Assembly (NCBI RefSeq): GCF_030413635.1
Contig: NZ_CP129235.1
Coordinates: 744,001 to 808,000, forward strand
Direction of reading: 5' to 3'
Source of the DNA: Planococcus shenhongbingii
Lineage (GTDB): Bacteria > Bacillota > Bacilli > Bacillales_A > Planococcaceae
Length of the DNA stretch: 64,000 bases
Both the position numbers and the translations under genes were made by a program. Each line of letters starts with the position of its first letter. Positions within the stretch are counted from its first letter, which is position 1. Below, piece after piece: positions 50,691-59,288 of the stretch. The notes beneath the pieces were generated by a model. That model made no database searches, was not told where the DNA came from, and saw nothing but the letters and a program-made list of their open reading frames with translations.

Positions 50691-51206
50691 GGTAAAACCT
50701 CCTCGAATTTGTCTTACAACTGATTCGTCTTTACGCCGTAGCTGAAATATCTCGATATGCATATTTTCTTTCACTTACAAAATAAAAGAAGATCCATACA
50801 TTCTTTCTAAAGAATATTCTTCTAATGGTTAAGGTTACATCACTTACTGGAATTGGCCTATTCCCTTTAAAGTAAGGAGTGCCTACCTCAAAAGGATGTA
50901 GTATCTTAAATTTTATTCATCGAATTGAGGGATTTGGAAGTGGAAATAGAAGAAACATCACCTTCATGGAAGAAACTCGACTTTAACGTTCTTCAGACAA
51001 GTCAGTAGACGAAAGAGATATGTAGAAATTAGTTTTTTCATACAATTTTTCTAATCACAAAATTCACAGCTTCACAACATAATTTTCAAGAATAGATGAT
51101 ATGATGATTAAATGAAAAAAGATTAGACCCTCCGTTTCAAAAGGTCCCAATCTTGGTGCAATGAATCAATAATAGATTTCTTCAGTTATACAGAACAGGT
51201 GATTAA
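50691..51206. other. Intergenic region before the helicase gene
   Basis: No gene. A weak hairpin GATT-GACC/GGTC-AATC lies at about 51121-51153. AGGTGAT at 51197-51203 is the Shine-Dalgarno of the helicase. Confidence 0.4.
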
Positions 51207-54200
51207 ATGGTGTTAGCAAAAACAAGTACATACAGCACATCCTTACGAATGACAAAGACCGCTACGGAAAAAATGAGAGGGTTCGGCATCAACGAACGCT
51301 CATTTTTTATGGAGAAACAGGCTTTTAATGTGTTTATCGAAAGGTATCCTTCAAATCCGGATGCCTCTCTTTCGGTTGCGCTGATTTTCGACAAGGCTGA
51401 GAGGAGCCGTTTGACCGAGAAGGAACTGGAAGGATTGATCGTCTTTCACTGTGTCGTCAAGAACCATCAATTGCTGGTGACGAATGTGACGCTTCGAAAA
51501 GCGTATGGAGCGCTCGGAACGAACTGGCAACGTGAAGAATCCATCCGTTTTGACAATTCCCGGGACCCAGCGCCAGTCGTACTCCTCAATTTGTTCAATC
51601 GCATGACACCGGCAAAGGAAAGTTCGGATTATGTGAAAAAGCGGATTTCCAGCTGGGAAGGCTATTTGAAGATTCAGGAACGCGGCATGGATATACCGGA
51701 TATCAAGACTTCTTATTCGAAACTGGCTTTTAGCCACGATTTCAGCCGCATCACGTTGACCGGCTGCCAAATGAAAGACAATGAGTGGAAAACTTTGAAG
51801 AATTTAAGTGTTCGGCTTGCCGGGATTGATGGCGATGTCGGAACGGTGATCAAAGCAGCGAACCGGACAGTCGAAATAGAACTTCAAAATTACGCCGTCA
51901 AACAGCTTCGCGAGAAAGAACATTCATTAAATAAAAGAGAAGTGGTGTTCAGCAATTTTGCGGCCCTCAGCCAAATCAGAAGGCTGCGCCAAGGTTTTAC
52001 GAATTTAGAAAAGGGTTTGGCAGTGAATCCGAATCTTGACCGCTTGTTGTTTGAAGAAAAGCCGCCGGTGCAGCCGCTCCAAAGAATAGAACGGCTGGCA
52101 TTCCATAATCGGCTTAATGAATTCCAGCAGCAGGCTGTATCAGGCGCGGTGGCAGCGGAAGATTTGTATGTCATCCAAGGTCCGCCTGGCACAGGGAAAA
52201 CCACGGTAATTGCGGAAATCTGCCTTCAAAATGCCAAAAAGGGATTGAAGACGCTTGTCGCTTCGCAGTCGAATTTAGCGGTTGATAATGCACTCGGCCG
52301 TTTGCTGGCGCATAAAGATATCCGGATTTTGCGTGTCGGCCGGACCGAAAGCATCGAAGAAGAAGGCAAAAAATTTATCGAAGAAAACGTCGGCCAGTAT
52401 TGGAAAGACAATACACTGAAAGAAATATCGGCACAATACGAGACGCGCCAAAAACGGGAAACCCAGCTGGAAAAAGAACTCGCGGCAACGGAACAAGCTT
52501 ATGAAGAGTTGCAGCCGGTTTACGAAAACTTAGCGGCAGCCGTCAAGGAAAAGAAAACAGCGCAGGAAAAACATCATGCAATTGAAACGGCATTGGAAGA
52601 AGAACAAGACAAACTAAAAGCATTCGAGCTTGTGAAACAAAAGGCCATGGATGAACAGCGCGAAATGACACAAAAGCTGCAGGCGTTTGAAAAGTTGATT
52701 CACCAAGATCAATTTATGATTGAAAGCAAGAGCATCCAGTGGTTCCAGGAAGAGCAAAAGCGGATATCGGATAATATCCAGCAACTCGAGCGTGCAGTGC
52801 TGTCTGGAAAGCTTGAAGAAGAACTGGCCAGTAAAAAGCGGGACATTGCTGCAATTGCGGATAAACGCAAACAAGTAACGGCGGTTATTGAACAGAAGAA
52901 CGCTTTAGCAGAGGCAACCGGACGCGTGAAAAAAGTGGATGGCTTGATGCAGGTGATGGCTGAGCAAAAAATTGAAGAAACACCGGCCATCACTTATTCA
53001 TTCAATAAATTAGAGATGATCCGTGAAAAGATGAATGAATTTGAAAAACTGCGGAAATACAACGAACTGATTGCCGCAGCGATTTCCTATGTGGAACAAT
53101 TATTAATGCCTTTTAACCCTTCTATTGATGAAATGAAGCAGCACGCCTTAGCAAAACCGGAAGCCTACCGTTCTTCTGAAATCGATTCCTTTTTGGAAAA
53201 GCTGCGGGGAGTACTGAAGAGTCCGCAGCGAAACGAGCCGGCAGTTTTGGCAAAAGCGCTCACAGGATTGTACAAGCGCCAACAGAATCTATGGAGAAGA
53301 GGCGCGAAGCTGAAGTCTGCGGAAGCGTATATCGAAGAAACCAAGCGGACTTTTCAGGAATTGAAAAAGGCGGTGTGCGGAGAGCTGTTAAAGCAACAAC
53401 AGCATTATCTCGAGTTGGACCGGAAATGGCAGACAGAACTGGAACGGAAGCAGCAGGACTTGGCTCCGCTTGAACAGCAATACAAAGAACTGGCTGTTGA
53501 GGCCGATATCCCTGAAGATATCGAAGCAGCCGTCCGTGAATATAAAGCTGAACTCGTTGAACTCCAAAAAGAAAAAGCCTTGTATGAACAGGCAGAAAAG
53601 CGGCTGGAAAAACTTCAAGGCGACTGTGCACAAGAAGCAACTGCTTTAGAGAACCAGGAAGCAAGAATGGCTGAAATAAACGCTGAACTGGAACAAGTGC
53701 AAGAAAGCATATCCCTCAAAGAAAAAGAAGTGGATGCTTTAAAAAATATCCTTTCTTCCAACCCCGAGGCCGAATACGAAGAAACGGCGAAGAAAATCGC
53801 CAGTCTTTCATTTGATCAGGAATCCCTCAAACAGGAAAAGAAGAATCTGCCATTGATGCAGTCCATCCAGAAAAAATGGCTGGATTTATTGGAAGGCGCG
53901 AATGACCATGATTTAGATGAAATCCGCAAATTGTATATCAAGCATGCCAATGTCATTGGGACGACTTGTGTGGCTTCTGCACGCAAAGATTTCGTCGACA
54001 ACTATCCGGTATTTGATGTCGTGATCATCGATGAAGTGTCGAAAGCGACACCGCCGGAACTGTTGCTGCCAATGCTGAAAGGCAAAAAAATCATTCTGGT
54101 CGGTGACCACCATCAATTGCCGCCGCTTCTTGGAAATGACACTTTGGAAGAAACGCTTGAGGAAATGATCAAAGAAAACAGCGGCTTTGAAGAAAAGCGG

Positions 54201-54977
54201 GAGCTCGAGAAGCTGCTGGAAGAGTCGTTGTTTGAGCGTTTGTATAAAAACTTGCCGGAAGCCAATAAGACGATGCTCGCGATTCAGTACCGGATGCATG
54301 CGGATATCATGGAAACAATCTCGCCGTTTTATAAAGGGGAGCACAAGCAATTGCAATGCGGCCTTATGGATTCCGACCGGGAACGCGATCATTTACTCGA
54401 GTCAAATTCAGTGAAACGCAGCAATCATTTGATGTGGATTGATCTGCCGAATGAACCGGCATATTTTGAAGAACGGATGAGCGGCGGTAAAAGTTTATAC
54501 AATCCAGCAGAACTTGGGGAAATCAGCGCGCTGTTAGTGGAAATGAATGATGCAGTGGCGGAAGCGAAGCGGGCGGGAAGAATGGCTGCAGATGAACTGA
54601 AAAGCGTCGGAGTCATCTCTTTCTACGGCGAACAAGTCAAACGGCTGCAGCGGATGATCGACCAAGAGCTGCGCTTGCCGCATTTGACGATCCGGACCGG
54701 AACCGTCGACCGGTTCCAAGGAAGCGAAATGGAAATCATTCTGCTCAGCATGGTGCGCAATAACCAAAACAACCACGGCGATATCGGATTCGCAAAAGAT
54801 TACCGCCGCTTGAACGTCGCGTTGTCGCGAGCCAAGCAATTATTGGTATTAGTCGGCAGTTCGGAAATGTTTACGAAACGTGCGAAAAAAGATGAAACGA
54901 AGAAAATGTACCAGCATGTATTGGAAACCGTTAAACAGAAGGATGGCTTGAAGCTATTGCAGGGAAGTAAGGGGTGA
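51207..54977 (+). CDS. UPF1-like superfamily 1 helicase with long coiled-coil insertion
   Basis: A 1256-residue SF1B-type helicase of the Dna2/NAM7/UPF1 group. The motifs occur in order: Walker A GPPGTGKTT (325-333), motif Ia VASQSNLAVDNAL, Walker B VIIDEVSKAT (Asp942-Glu943), motif III LVGDHHQLPPLL, motif IV QYRMHADI (1027 on), motif V TVDRFQGSEMEIILLSMVR and motif VI NVALSRAKQLLVL (1203 on). Between motifs Ia and II lies a roughly 500-residue charged coiled-coil region (about 415-900), far longer than in UPF1. The N-terminal 300 residues lack a recognised nuclease. The start ATG 51207 follows AGGTGAT. It is coupled to the next gene (TGA, four-base gap, ATG). Confidence 0.85.
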   Translation: MVLAKTSTYSTSLRMTKTATEKMRGFGINERSFFMEKQAFNVFIERYPSNPDASLSVALIFDKAERSRLTEKELEGLIVFHCVVKNHQLLVTNVTLRKAYGALGTNWQREESIRFDNSRDPAPVVLLNLFNRMTPAKESSDYVKKRISSWEGYLKIQERGMDIPDIKTSYSKLAFSHDFSRITLTGCQMKDNEWKTLKNLSVRLAGIDGDVGTVIKAANRTVEIELQNYAVKQLREKEHSLNKREVVFSNFAALSQIRRLRQGFTNLEKGLAVNPNLDRLLFEEKPPVQPLQRIERLAFHNRLNEFQQQAVSGAVAAEDLYVIQGPPGTGKTTVIAEICLQNAKKGLKTLVASQSNLAVDNALGRLLAHKDIRILRVGRTESIEEEGKKFIEENVGQYWKDNTLKEISAQYETRQKRETQLEKELAATEQAYEELQPVYENLAAAVKEKKTAQEKHHAIETALEEEQDKLKAFELVKQKAMDEQREMTQKLQAFEKLIHQDQFMIESKSIQWFQEEQKRISDNIQQLERAVLSGKLEEELASKKRDIAAIADKRKQVTAVIEQKNALAEATGRVKKVDGLMQVMAEQKIEETPAITYSFNKLEMIREKMNEFEKLRKYNELIAAAISYVEQLLMPFNPSIDEMKQHALAKPEAYRSSEIDSFLEKLRGVLKSPQRNEPAVLAKALTGLYKRQQNLWRRGAKLKSAEAYIEETKRTFQELKKAVCGELLKQQQHYLELDRKWQTELERKQQDLAPLEQQYKELAVEADIPEDIEAAVREYKAELVELQKEKALYEQAEKRLEKLQGDCAQEATALENQEARMAEINAELEQVQESISLKEKEVDALKNILSSNPEAEYEETAKKIASLSFDQESLKQEKKNLPLMQSIQKKWLDLLEGANDHDLDEIRKLYIKHANVIGTTCVASARKDFVDNYPVFDVVIIDEVSKATPPELLLPMLKGKKIILVGDHHQLPPLLGNDTLEETLEEMIKENSGFEEKRELEKLLEESLFERLYKNLPEANKTMLAIQYRMHADIMETISPFYKGEHKQLQCGLMDSDRERDHLLESNSVKRSNHLMWIDLPNEPAYFEERMSGGKSLYNPAELGEISALLVEMNDAVAEAKRAGRMAADELKSVGVISFYGEQVKRLQRMIDQELRLPHLTIRTGTVDRFQGSEMEIILLSMVRNNQNNHGDIGFAKDYRRLNVALSRAKQLLVLVGSSEMFTKRAKKDETKKMYQHVLETVKQKDGLKLLQGSKG

Positions 54978-54981
54978 GCGA

Positions 54982-55746
54982 ATGGATCAACTGATAAAAG
55001 AACTGCGGTCGAGTCTATTGGCAACTCCTGATATCTCCATTATAAAAGATCAGGTTTGGAAGTTGCCGATTGTATCCTATGATGTGAGCTTTAATCGGGT
55101 CAAGCGGTTGAAAATGGACATCTTGATGAAAATGCTGCTCTTTGCTTTTCAGGAATCGGATATCCGAAGAGCCGCTGCTTTAGCGGATATGCTGCTGGTG
55201 GAAGAGCTGTTTATCCGCGATTTGATCGACAAGATGCAGCGCGGGCAATTGATTCAGCTTGAAAAAAAGGGGTTTAAATTGACGGCTAAAGGATACAACT
55301 ACCTGGAAAAAGGCATTTTTGATGAAGACATGGAAGGGGATCAAACCTTGATCTCCTGTAGTGCCATCCATGACGACTACCTGTTAACGGCAGAAACTGC
55401 TCATCCGGAAGCTGAAGAGAAACTTCCGCTTTACCGCTATGACGCAGCAAAAGGAAGCTTGAAAAAGGACCGCATGCAGCAGCTTCTTGCCAAGGAAATG
55501 GTGTATCCGGAGGAAGAAAGTTTTCAAATCATCGTGACAGACATTACAGCTTGCATTGAGCACAAAACGCACTGGATTCCGTGTATTGAATTTCAACTAT
55601 ACGATCAAAAGCAGGACGTCTTTTATGCCCGTGTCTGGAATACGCTGAAGGAGAGCTGGGACGAGACGTTGGCGAAGCAGATTGAAGAGCGCGAAGTGGT
55701 GAAATGGCGCAAAGCGATGGAGCAGCGGGAATCAGCTTTGGGTTGA
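54982..55746 (+). CDS. Unrecognised helicase-partner protein with winged-helix-like N-terminus
   Basis: A 254-residue soluble protein. Residues 45-105 (MDILMKMLLFAFQESDIRRA, then LADMLLVEELFIRDLIDKMQ and IQLEKKGFKLTAKGYNYLEK) have the helix-turn-helix-wing pattern of a winged helix. The C-terminal half is beta-rich (SFQIIVTDITACIEHKTHW, CIEFQLYDQKQDVFYARVWN). No catalytic motif is evident. Its ATG lies four bases after the helicase stop, and its AAGGGGTGAGCGA Shine-Dalgarno overlaps that stop, so translation is coupled and a shared function is likely. A strong terminator follows. Confidence 0.7.
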   Translation: MDQLIKELRSSLLATPDISIIKDQVWKLPIVSYDVSFNRVKRLKMDILMKMLLFAFQESDIRRAAALADMLLVEELFIRDLIDKMQRGQLIQLEKKGFKLTAKGYNYLEKGIFDEDMEGDQTLISCSAIHDDYLLTAETAHPEAEEKLPLYRYDAAKGSLKKDRMQQLLAKEMVYPEEESFQIIVTDITACIEHKTHWIPCIEFQLYDQKQDVFYARVWNTLKESWDETLAKQIEEREVVKWRKAMEQRESALG

Positions 55747-55761
55747 ATATCTATAAATGAC

Positions 55762-55807
55762 AAAAAGAGCTTCCGGGGGTGCAAGTTACTCCCGGAAGCT
55801 CTTTTTT
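55762..55807 (+). terminator. Bidirectional intrinsic terminator
   Basis: AAAAAGAGCTTCCGGG pairs with CCCGGAAGCTCTTTTT. It ends the helicase operon and the convergent LysR gene. Confidence 0.9.
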
Positions 55808-55811
55808 ATGA

Positions 55812-56693
55812 TTAGAAAGGTGCGTTATCCGATAGATAGTGGATGAATTCACGGACCGCAGGTGAAGGTTTTTTCTTCTTTTTGGATATGAGGCCCAGTT
55901 TCCAAGGAAATGTTGGATTGACGATGGGAATTGCTTTGATTAATTCAGGATCGAATTTTTTCTCGATAGGTTTCGGGCAAATTGAAATTCCTAAGTTTTC
56001 GGCAATCATTTCACTAATGAAGCCCCATTCGGAAATTTCATAAGCGATTTTTGGCTGAAAACCGGCTCGCTGGCATTCTTGGACAATCAGGCTATGAAAG
56101 AGCGCTTGTTTAAACAGGATGAAGGTTTCATGTTCCAGCTCTTTAATTTCCACTTTTTCCTTCTGCGCGAAGGGATGGGAATGATGAACAAAAAGCGCCA
56201 GTTGTTCATCGACCAAAGGAACTGAATTGAACTCCTTGTCATCCACTGGCAAAATTACTACCCCTAAATCCAATCTTCCGTCTCTAACATCCTGTTGAAC
56301 TTTTTTCGAGTCATCTTCCGTAATTTTTAGTTTGATATCGGGATATAGATTATTAAACCCTTTGATGATTTTCGGGAAAAACAAAAACCCGATTACTGGC
56401 GGGATGCCAATTTTTATTTTTCCTTTTTTTAAGTTCATTAAATCGTATAGGTTAACAGATAAATCATTCAGCGATTCCATAATCACTTCGCCTTCCGCCA
56501 AGACGATTTCCCCTGCCTCTGTTAAGTCAATTTTCTTTGTCGAACGGTCAATCAGTTCAACATTCAATTCATCTTCCAAGTCTTTGACTACTTTACTGAT
56601 TGTAGACTGTGACAGATGAAGGGACTTCGACGCTTCCGTGAAACTTTTATATTTAGCTACTTCTATAAAGTAAGTAAGATGGCGTATGTCCAT
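55812..56693 (-). CDS. LysR family transcriptional regulator
   Basis: A 293-residue LysR regulator. The DNA-binding domain MDIRHLTYFIEVAKYKSFTE, ASKSLHLSQSTISKVVKDLE and the effector domain (KGKIKIGIPPVIGFLFFPKI, HSHPFAQKEKVEIKELEHET) are complete. AGGAG precedes ATG 56693. It diverges from a GntP permease gene across a 348-base region containing ATGATTATCAT. By the usual LysR layout it probably controls the permease/dehydrogenase pair in response to their substrate. Confidence 0.9.
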   Translation of the reverse strand: MDIRHLTYFIEVAKYKSFTEASKSLHLSQSTISKVVKDLEDELNVELIDRSTKKIDLTEAGEIVLAEGEVIMESLNDLSVNLYDLMNLKKGKIKIGIPPVIGFLFFPKIIKGFNNLYPDIKLKITEDDSKKVQQDVRDGRLDLGVVILPVDDKEFNSVPLVDEQLALFVHHSHPFAQKEKVEIKELEHETFILFKQALFHSLIVQECQRAGFQPKIAYEISEWGFISEMIAENLGISICPKPIEKKFDPELIKAIPIVNPTFPWKLGLISKKKKKPSPAVREFIHYLSDNAPF

Positions 56694-57041: not shown

Positions 57042-58361
57042 ATGGATATATTGGGTTTACTGGGAATTGCGTTAGGAATCCTGACAATCATTCTCTTTAT
57101 TGTGAAAAAGTTCAGTATCATCGTGGCAGCTCCCATCGCTACGATTGTCGTCCTGCTGTTCAGTGGAGTCCCGATACTGGAGACGGTATTTGGCAAAGAA
57201 AACTCCTATATGACGGCACTTGCCGGATTTATTGCGGCCAACTTTGCCATCTTCTTATTGGGTTCGATCTTGGCGAAATATATGGACAAGAGTGGGGCGA
57301 CGGTTTCGATCGCCGATAAAGTCTTGTCGGTGGTCGGAACGAAGAACCCGTACAATGCTTTAGTGGCATTGTTCATCATTTCCGCCATCCTCACATACGG
57401 TGGCATTAACGTCTTCGTCATCATCTTTGCTTTGATTCCGATGGCGAAGCCGATTTTCCAACAGTTGAACATTTCCTGGAAATTGGTGATCATTCCGATT
57501 TTCGGGGGGACATCGACATTCACCATGACGATGCTGCCGGGGGCACCGTCCCTGCATAATATTGTGCCATCAACGGGCTTGGGTACTTCTCTGACAGCAG
57601 CACCGTTGATTGGGATTGTGACCTCGATTGTTGCGATTGTTTTCATCCTGCTATTCATGAAATGGTCGCTCAATAAGAGTTTGAAGAAGAACGAAACCTT
57701 CGAAGTGAAAGACGGCGTATTGAAAGATGAAGCGGTCGTCGACCGTGAACTGCCTTCATTCCTTGTCAGCTTGCTGCCGATTGTCACTTTGCTGGCCATC
57801 ATCCTGATTTTCAGTTCAGTGAACAATATCATCATTGTGGCTTTGATTGTAGCGATTTTACTGAGTGCGGTTTTATTCCGTAAACAAATCACTCAACAAA
57901 GAGAAGCATTAAACGAAGGGGCTGCCGACTCATTGGCATCCACCATTACGACAGGCAGTACCATTGCATTTGGTAGCATTACCACCAGTGTTCCAGCGTT
58001 CAAAGGCGTCTTCCGAATGATCCAATCGATTCCGGGACCTCCGATCCTGTCACTGATGATCGGTACAGGTCTGATCAGCGGGATCACCGCTTCCGCAGTT
58101 GGAGCCATCGGAATCGCAGTCCAGAACTTTGCCCCGATTTATCTGGAAATGGGCATGAATCCTGAAACGATCCACCGTACGATTGCCATCTCGGCGGGGG
58201 CATTGGCTATCGTCCCTTACTCTGGCTTCTTAATCATCTTCAACAGCTTGACGGGATTGCCGATGAAAGACACCTTCAAAAATGCCTTTATCAGTATTAA
58301 CGTAACCCACTGGATCGCGCTGGTTGTCATCATCATCATGACGTTGGTAGGTTTAGCTTAA
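57042..58361 (+). CDS. GntP-type carboxylate/gluconate permease
   Basis: A 439-residue membrane transporter with about twelve to fourteen hydrophobic segments, of the GntP/anion-symporter group. GGINVFVIIFALIPMAKPIF, FGGTSTFTMTMLPGAPSLHN and SGITASAVGAIGIAVQNFAP are the conserved stretches; PGAPS-type turns are typical of the substrate hairpins. Substrates in the family are gluconate, glycerate, lactate or 3-hydroxybutyrate. The downstream dehydrogenase suggests a hydroxy acid. Weak Shine-Dalgarno (ATGAGGT, 12 bases upstream). Confidence 0.85.
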   Translation: MDILGLLGIALGILTIILFIVKKFSIIVAAPIATIVVLLFSGVPILETVFGKENSYMTALAGFIAANFAIFLLGSILAKYMDKSGATVSIADKVLSVVGTKNPYNALVALFIISAILTYGGINVFVIIFALIPMAKPIFQQLNISWKLVIIPIFGGTSTFTMTMLPGAPSLHNIVPSTGLGTSLTAAPLIGIVTSIVAIVFILLFMKWSLNKSLKKNETFEVKDGVLKDEAVVDRELPSFLVSLLPIVTLLAIILIFSSVNNIIIVALIVAILLSAVLFRKQITQQREALNEGAADSLASTITTGSTIAFGSITTSVPAFKGVFRMIQSIPGPPILSLMIGTGLISGITASAVGAIGIAVQNFAPIYLEMGMNPETIHRTIAISAGALAIVPYSGFLIIFNSLTGLPMKDTFKNAFISINVTHWIALVVIIIMTLVGLA

Positions 58362-58451
58362 TCACGAAACAAGAAGAACATTAAAAGAACGATGAAATCA
58401 GAACGAATCCGCACCACCAAAAATTCAACACACTATTAGGAGGAATTCGAC

Positions 58452-59288
58452 ATGAGTAAAAAAATTGGATTTGTAGGATTAGGAACAATGGGCTTCCCAA
58501 TGGCAGTCAACTTATTGAAAGCTGGATTTGAAGTTATCGGATACGACGCCTTCCCGGCGGTTTATCCAAAAGCGGAAGCAGCAGGAATCACGATGGTTAA
58601 GACTTTGAAAGAAGTAGCGGAACAATCCGACGAAGCGATCATCTCGATGGTTCGTGACTATGCGCAAAACGTCGACATCATTTTTAGCGAAGGCGGCTTG
58701 TTATCGGCTCAACCGAAAAACAAAACCATCATTGTCATGAGTACATTGGATCCGGAGACGATGAATCAATTAAGCAAAAAGGTTGAAGCAGAAAGTGATT
58801 TGAACTTGATCGACGCAGCAGTGAGCGGCGGGGCATCTGGTGCTCAAGCAGGTACGTTGTCGATTATGACTTCCGGTTCAGAAGAAATCGTGAAATCGTT
58901 ACAGCCTTACTTTGATGCAGTTGGCTCGAACACATTCTACTATGGCACAGAAGTCGGCAATAGCCAGGCAGCGAAATTGATTAACAATTTAATCCTCGGC
59001 ATCAACATGAATGCCGTAGCAGAAGGCCTTAAATTAGGTGCGCATTACAACTTGCCTGAAGAAGAAGTCCTGAACTTATTGAAAGTCAGCACAGGCGACA
59101 GCTGGGTAGTACGCAACTGGAGCGATGTTTCTGAGTGGACATCTGAAACTGCGTTGGCTGTTCTATTGAAAGACTTAATCGCGTCTTACAACCAAGGCAT
59201 CAAACACAATGTTTCTATGCCATTCAACGCCTTGTCATCGACTCAATTGTTCAACTCGATGGAAAAAGAGAAGCCAGAAGCAAAGTAA
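58452..59288 (+). CDS. 3-hydroxyisobutyrate dehydrogenase-like / beta-hydroxyacid dehydrogenase
   Basis: A 278-residue NAD(P)-dependent beta-hydroxyacid dehydrogenase. KKIGFVGLGTMGFPMAVNLL is the cofactor fold, DAAVSGGASGAQAGTLSIMT the substrate-binding signature, and SQAAKLINNLILGINMNAVA carries the catalytic Lys. Hydroxyisobutyrate, tartronate semialdehyde or related acids are candidates. TTAGGAGGAATTCGAC gives a strong start. It lies 90 bases after the permease gene, presumably in one LysR-controlled transcript for hydroxy-acid uptake and oxidation. Confidence 0.9.
   Translation: MSKKIGFVGLGTMGFPMAVNLLKAGFEVIGYDAFPAVYPKAEAAGITMVKTLKEVAEQSDEAIISMVRDYAQNVDIIFSEGGLLSAQPKNKTIIVMSTLDPETMNQLSKKVEAESDLNLIDAAVSGGASGAQAGTLSIMTSGSEEIVKSLQPYFDAVGSNTFYYGTEVGNSQAAKLINNLILGINMNAVAEGLKLGAHYNLPEEEVLNLLKVSTGDSWVVRNWSDVSEWTSETALAVLLKDLIASYNQGIKHNVSMPFNALSSTQLFNSMEKEKPEAK

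Follow-up and report, generated by a model that had tools for sequence, protein, structure and literature searches.

Why would a bacterium keep a UPF1-like helicase with a very long insertion in its motor, and directly behind it the gene of a small winged-helix protein? The question is raised by two adjacent genes, here called H (the helicase) and S (its partner), on contig NZ_CP129235.1, of which positions 744,001 to 808,000, a stretch of 64,000 nucleotides, were analysed and are called the window below. The host was placed as Planococcus from the names of the nearest S proteins and of the nearest named loci. In our opinion, which we hold with moderate confidence, H and S are a surveillance pair of the MkoA-MkoB or CnuH-CnuE kind from which the effector is missing, and the output would be remodelling or recruitment. 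The sequences support the architecture, the gene order, the co-occurrence, the correlated divergence and the likeness of S to an MkoB-type N-terminus that ends before the effector; a physical H-S complex, its substrate, the direction of movement and the biological role are what we infer.

H, S and their relatives in known systems

The motor of H is spanned by the Pfam families AAA_11 and AAA_12, and its nearest relatives in the PDB are SMUBP-2, DNA2, UPF1 and SEN1. In an alignment of 21 rows (the window protein and 20 homologues, of which 19 belong to the host family and G296 does not) the motifs GPPGTGKTT (residues 325-333), DEVSK (942-946), GDHHQLPPL (966-974) and QYRMH (1027-1031) are invariant throughout, and most residues of regions Ia (349-363), V and VI are invariant too. 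An earlier note, made on this DNA from the letters alone, had said that H keeps all superfamily 1 (SF1) motifs, and this is borne out. The same note placed a coiled coil of about 500 residues in the interval from motif Ia to motif II. The insertion is indeed about 490 amino acids long (window residues 400-890), and in 99 aligned helicases, a set that excludes broken or cut ones, it measures 473-516 residues; its sequence is very variable while its length is tightly kept. The coiled coil, however, holds only for parts of it. Heptad periodicity is strong at 379-504, 547-630 and 673-882 and absent at 463-588 and 589-714 (84-residue windows, in a simple, uncorrected Fourier test), which points to coiled-coil stretches flanking a middle without heptad signal.

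With IGHMBP2/SMUBP-2, UPF1, SEN1 and DNA2, H has the SF1B motor and its motifs in common; none of these is known to carry an insertion of about 490 amino acids at this place. H also differs from the IGHMBP2 family in that the NCBIfam model (TIGR00376) gives it 247 bits, below the curated cut-off of 348.9. The PADLOC model of MkoA, PDLC03920, matches H with E 1.7e-114.

The main test of the likeness of S to MkoB compared profiles. The MkoB-like profile was built from the DarT protein and 20 others, each either of PLD type or an unscanned relative of a PLD-type protein. Aligned with it by hhalign, the S profile gives E 2.3e-5 and a score of 46.7, with S columns 21-230 placed on 28-243; the best of 200 column shuffles reached 27.6. 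The effector part of the same profile does not align with S (E 0.56), nor does the reversed profile (E 0.67). The aligned part covers about 240 N-terminal residues, and S ends where the PLD, PIN or DarT effector of MkoB-like proteins would start. Among 14 single second proteins compared with S, three (from loci L218, L220 and L290, all cyanobacterial and of PLD type) beat the best of 150 unrelated controls. The PADLOC models of MkoB (E<=1) match 9 (PDLC03922) and 6 (PDLC03923) of 21 S proteins, at best with 1.7e-7, and in six of the ten S proteins checked singly (E<=0.1) the match falls near the MkoB N-terminus, for example residues 27-137 of S on 9-120 of 610. Domain scans recognised no nuclease or toxin domain in S and found no HEPN, PLD or Vsr effector; a PLD is present in 0/21 S proteins scanned, and a convincing Pfam match in the C-terminal region likewise in 0/21. 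Judged on these alignments, S resembles the adaptor half of an MkoB-type protein without the effector half.

Armed relatives of the pair are found on plasmids. A tblastn search with H matched 208 plasmid records, none of them covering more than 80% of it in one place, and 15 regions were picked for reading among 60 listed of these records. In 14 a protein of 434-821 amino acids follows the helicase directly, and it is of PLD, PIN, DarT, MkoB or unnamed type (typed from record annotation in nine of the 15 regions); only in Streptococcus salivarius, where the helicase is short, is this not so. This arrangement is the one described for CnuH and CnuE of CoCoNuT and their relatives: in CnuH a large helical insertion follows Walker A, and the gene downstream of helicases of its family typically encodes an elongated winged helix-turn-helix (wHTH) fused to an effector, generally a nuclease (PMC11090510).

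The cyanobacterial helicases of L218 (Cyanobacterium HL-69), L219 (Nostoc C052) and L220 (Aulosira) align with H over both motor parts, have long insertions and show no detectable kinase or NERD; the alignment of H with that of Nostoc starts near residue 109 and runs to the end of H (E 2e-103). With 1246 amino acids the Nostoc helicase is near H in length, while the other two are longer (1626 in L218, 1478 in L220). In all three loci the second gene overlaps the helicase end. Its product has 531-621 amino acids with a C-terminal PLD or DarT domain, and the N-termini of the PLD ones align with S, which has 254 amino acids and ends before the effector.

Several of these plasmid relatives lie among defence genes. 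The Nostoc helicase and its DarT-domain partner (L219:5551-10870) lie inside a BREX operon, between pglX and ADP-ribosylglycohydrolase/pglZ; one other relative sits beside a qatC gene and one occurs with a Mokosh MkoB. A five-gene operon in the order helicase, PIN-domain protein, hypothetical protein, AAA ATPase and 4Fe-4S protein recurs on plasmids of five proteobacterial genera (L222, L282, L283, L284, L285).

Is the pair then a member of a described system? The COG1112 helicase core of MkoA type is present in H, and some S relatives match the MkoB N-terminus. MkoA of Mokosh type I carries an N-terminal serine/threonine kinase. The description of Mokosh further gives MkoA an N-terminal NERD region and MkoB a PLD effector (PMC10952713). 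Neither Pkinase nor NERD was found in H (Pfam, E<=1), whereas both were found in the MkoA helicase beside MkoB in L223, and the PLD was not found in S. These defining features are absent, and going by its sequence the pair is not a member of Mokosh type I. With CoCoNuT types II and III H shares the features of CnuH, namely a UPF1-like helicase, the insertion after Walker A and a wHTH gene next to it (PMC11090510). No McrB-like GTPase or McrC-like protein (CnuB, CnuC) is among the five nearest neighbours, and by what was tested the pair is not a CoCoNuT; a search of the own genome for DUF2357 gave no match, but its control was silent as well. The broad CnuHE-like family combines a downstream wHTH gene like the N-terminus of CnuE or MkoB, which S provides, with a C-terminal effector, which it does not (PMC11090510). 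A paper on an effector-less pair was not found in the open-access literature, searched by title and abstract start. The Hachiman helicase belongs to a different helicase family than H, and HamA is a nuclease whereas S is without a recognised one. HamA-HamB serves here as a working analogy only, that of a sensor helicase holding its partner (PMC12278908). Going by the features compared, H-S seems to be a variant of a known defence-type pair, one that is near-core and has no effector, and it would act like the sensing half of Mokosh and CoCoNuT.

Co-occurrence and descent of the pair

S is present in 24 of 24 genomes of the same genus (the own one included) and in 0 of 16 others. Within the host family it was found in 179 of 200 genomes, and so was H (E<=1e-60). 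The absences coincide: 20 of the 21 are listed for each gene and identical, the 21st being unlisted in both, and no genome among the 200 was seen with only one of the two. Partial or fragmented matches concern S of G209 and H of G063, G072, G081 and G222. Outside the family the pair is sporadic. Across the class H was found in 28 of 299 genomes, of which 27 belong to the host family, and the S profile in 42 of 398, which comprise 36 of the host family, two full-length ones elsewhere (G296, G518) and four short matches to the winged helix only; across the phylum the S profile found 2 of 299 genomes, both in the host family.

Among named genomes one search pattern gave 313 stretches, of which 170 encode a relative. 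The best 80 of these were kept: 30 from Planococcus/Planomicrobium, 6 from Filibacter/Psychrobacillus/Sporosarcina and 44 from further genera whose names are mostly those of Bacillaceae (Mesobacillus, Domibacillus, Halalkalibacter, Neobacillus, Metabacillus, among others), including one contig labelled Paenibacillus and one labelled as a Planctomycetes metagenome-assembled genome. The latter, L192, holds a Bacillaceae-like pair and is probably contamination. In Domibacillus iocasae a second S-like match, in two pieces (L177:14259-14815) and about 3.5 kb beyond the first, is probably a degraded copy.

In all 20 fetched loci H and S lie side by side and in the same order. The 80 named loci were fetched because they encode S; in 78 of them H and S are adjacent by simple calling of open reading frames, and in the other two tblastn places S right after H. 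L192 and L196 have a broken or cut H. In five further genomes the two are neighbours in four, with about 257 bases between them in two of these four. Genome G171, which was chosen for its differing listed contigs (the other listed pairs were checked by eye only), has H at L275:4375-8226 (-) and S at L276:5973-6740 (+), both open and on different contigs, each beside genes reading like parts of a sugar ABC transporter; this is either a rearrangement in which both genes were kept or an assembly artefact.

H and S are also the sole elements common to 21 diverse loci, where the next flank family occurs in 6. The commonest flank family reaches 8 of the 44 named loci from other genera (L168-L211), and within the 30 Planococcus loci one reaches 19. 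The 21 diverse loci and L168-L211 thus show no conserved third gene next to H and S; unlinked candidates were not searched. The description of the pair as a stand-alone two-gene unit is therefore well founded, and what the earlier note had named as evidence that would speak against it, a fixed housekeeping setting in which the helicase is widespread but the small gene is missing, was not observed.

The two proteins also diverge together. In 20 genomes (G069 and G518 excluded) the S and H distances correlate at 0.80 after removal of the rpoB distance, and 0 of 2000 permutations came as high; a common local rate, or transfer, may contribute to this value. The trees of rpoB and H come from quick searches; in the H tree, G040, G045 and G049 drew long-branch warnings. 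Groups common to both are G048+G139, G051+G109+G053, G044+G055, G041+G208, G043+G166 and G000+G009+G069. G040 is discordant, standing with G043/G166 on rpoB and beside Planococcus and Bacillaceae on H, and the placement of G045/G052 differs as well. As far as such trees tell, that of the pair largely follows rpoB, with discordances. The H proteins of Bacillaceae stand beside those of Planococcus. In an unrooted tree this is consistent with rpoB, where Planococcus is the first branch of the family; a transfer of the pair between Bacillaceae and Planococcus is equally possible.

Since the five included genomes that lack the pair fall in at least four places of the rpoB tree, several losses in the host family are suggested. 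In all ten pair-lacking genomes tested the MkoA model (E<=1e-30) finds only a frame of 648-694 amino acids at its first 300 or so positions, probably a kinase; as nothing else than such kinase-like frames was found, no close replacement helicase is seen. In the host genome, too, these model positions match only a separate frame of 662 amino acids, which we take as a kinase.

The preferred reading and its rivals

How could such a pair work? H would be an SF1B motor on RNA or single-stranded DNA, presumably moving 5'-3' like UPF1, SMUBP2 and DNA2. The insertion in its first RecA domain may project as a partly coiled-coil arm of fixed length. By analogy, S would be the adaptor half of a CnuE/MkoB-type protein, most likely docking on H and perhaps on its arm; such binding is suggested for CnuE by the multimer model of the CoCoNuT authors (PMC11090510). 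In the defence relatives the adaptor bears a nuclease or an ADP-ribosyltransferase that is thought to be coupled to the helicase. Because this domain is absent from S, the output of the pair would probably be remodelling (the clearing of proteins, R-loops, stalled complexes or aberrant RNA) or recruitment, not cutting, and this function would be retained almost throughout the host family.

A wider interpretation, which we offer only tentatively, is that H-S is an immune-type helicase-adaptor sensor without a killing domain, either shed or never possessed, that may now be a near-core genome or RNA surveillance machine of one family. It may be a domesticated descendant of Mokosh/CoCoNuT-type operons or may stand near an ancestral weaponless state that was later armed with interchangeable effectors. 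That nearly every genome of one family has the pair suits a domesticated function at least as well as it suits a typical, patchy defence system. If this is true, the pair would plainly illustrate how helicase-based surveillance passes between immunity and housekeeping, and would parallel UPF1 in eukaryotes. What helicases of the Mokosh and CoCoNuT types sense is not settled in the literature consulted; a naturally occurring form that has no recognisable toxic effector, in environmental bacteria that are easy to grow, would open the sensing and remodelling step to study without the cell damage of the armed systems.

Several observations weigh against an effector-less MkoB-type adaptor. In the hhalign comparison the probability reaches no more than 76% and the E-values are those of single comparisons, and 11 of the 14 single second proteins align with S no better than the best of the unrelated controls. 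The specificity of the MkoB match is limited: another winged-helix model, WH_III-A, matches more S proteins than those of MkoB do (11 of 21, best 9.7e-5), so part of the MkoB signal is that of winged helices in general; PRTase_III-A, Csa3 and CARF models match a few of the 21 as well. The earlier note had held that the small protein matches no family. This stands for the S of the window, which has no Pfam family at the cut-offs and no PADLOC model at E<=1, but not for those relatives that match the MkoB N-terminus. The likeness to CnuH and CnuE is drawn from their published description. Four residues of S are strongly conserved among 99 S proteins (S127 in 97, H130 in 98, R217 and D227 in all), which could mean an undiscovered activity. 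Finally, the pair diverges fast (median identity 0.42 for H and 0.36 for S, as against 0.90 for rpoB), and its distances track those of rpoB loosely (r 0.45 for H, 0.25 for S), which weakens a purely vertical, housekeeping-like history.

The conserved residues and the fast, loosely tracking divergence are also what speaks for the pair being a working antiphage system, with a new, unrecognised effector, such as a nuclease or a nucleotide-acting enzyme, in the C-terminal region of S. So do the plasmid relatives that sit with BREX, qatC or Mokosh MkoB, and the S of L098, which has weak matches to oligonucleotide-cyclase models at residues 139-223 (best E 3.6e-4). We nevertheless consider this explanation unlikely: the C-terminal region aligns to the MkoB-like part that precedes the effector and has no convincing Pfam match in any of the 21 S proteins, and the pair is near-core in one family, has a tree largely following rpoB and lies among metabolic genes. 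The hint of a defence role in the earlier note survives as homology to operons of the Mokosh and CoCoNuT type, one of them in BREX, but finds no echo in the neighbours or in a nuclease or toxin domain of S.

Would an ordinary repair or replication helicase of the IGHMBP2/DNA2 kind do, which merely shares an operon with a DNA-binding regulator and owes its likeness to defence systems to common ancestry? The resemblance of the H core to SMUBP-2 and DNA2 and the near-core presence of the pair agree with this, yet in our opinion it is quite improbable. H stays below the cut-off of the IGHMBP2 model, the strict co-occurrence and correlated divergence tie S to H, both being open even where they lie apart (in one genome, G171), and the pair, which 21 of the 200 family genomes lack and which is sporadic elsewhere, is hence not essential. 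An effector provided in trans, by an unlinked protein that S recruits, would suit an adaptor-like architecture without effector, but is very doubtful, as the loci compared share no third gene next to H and S, unlinked candidates being outside that search.

Layout, flanks and further observations

The two-gene layout is as first described: both reading frames lie where they had been placed, 4 bases apart, with a ribosome-binding-like site overlapping the H stop codon (Table 1). The long spacer upstream (432 bp) and the strong terminator are real as well; the stretch 55747-55815 folds with -33 kcal/mol (z -7.7), and the terminator in it is overlooked by a simple pattern scan.

Table 1. Features of the H-S locus, in window coordinates
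Feature	Position	Strand	Remarks
Helicase H gene	51207..54977	+	UPF1/SMUBP2-type SF1 motor, 1256 amino acids
First motor segment of H, residues 301-400, Walker A and motif Ia	52107..52406	+	median pairwise identity 0.84 (20 genomes)
Long insertion of H, residues ~401-890, partly coiled coil	52407..53876	+	median identity 0.19 (20 genomes)
Second motor segment of H, residues 891-1256, motifs II-VI	53877..54974	+	median identity 0.67 (20 genomes)
Partner S gene	54982..55746	+	254 amino acids, winged-helix protein, 4 bases past H stop
Winged-helix region of S, residues ~44-110	55111..55311	+	CggR_N / HTH_45 matches, weak, under cut-off
C-terminal region of S, residues 111-254, without known domain	55312..55743	+	
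Spacer, 432 bp, between divergent SDR gene and H gene	50775..51206	.	
Ribosome-binding-like site AAGGGGTGA overlapping H stop codon	54969..54977	+	by eye from sequence
Intrinsic terminator between S and convergent LysR gene	55763..55807	.	folding energy

The five nearest neighbours in the window encode an MFS transporter, an SDR protein, a LysR protein, a GntP-type permease and a hydroxyisobutyrate-type dehydrogenase. The GntP-type permease gene and the 3-hydroxyisobutyrate-dehydrogenase-like gene (57042-59288), beside the LysR gene, are ordinary metabolic neighbours.

A defence-island location, which the earlier note had raised, was not borne out and was dropped. In a scan of 95 of the 209 listed flank proteins of L168-L211, loci outside the host family, each PADLOC family matched at most 2 of the 95; the scan had no background set. 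In it 72 families matched at least one protein, and among the 25 shown, helicases of DrmD/DpdE/ZorD type were matched in 2 proteins, down to 6e-130. A phage origin was rejected too: the scan of viral contigs with S gave two loci with one 46-residue match each (E 4e-4), in a frame unlike S elsewhere, which we take as chance, and in phages H has only two partial matches. Spread of the pair itself on plasmids was likewise set aside, 72,556 plasmid records holding no match to two S queries.

As to expression, seven promoter-like sites were seen in 50780-55900 against 6.0 expected by chance, that is, no excess. SOS-type control of H-S was dropped as well, no LexA-like box (one pattern) being present in 79 upstream regions of 250 bases. 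Many of the loci L168-L211 carry a ribosome-site motif, GCAGGTG, upstream of H, and in those that do (28 of 44) no conserved RNA structure of the 5' leader is predicted there. Many of these loci also have, upstream of H, an element TATGCTATAAT that resembles an extended -10 promoter.

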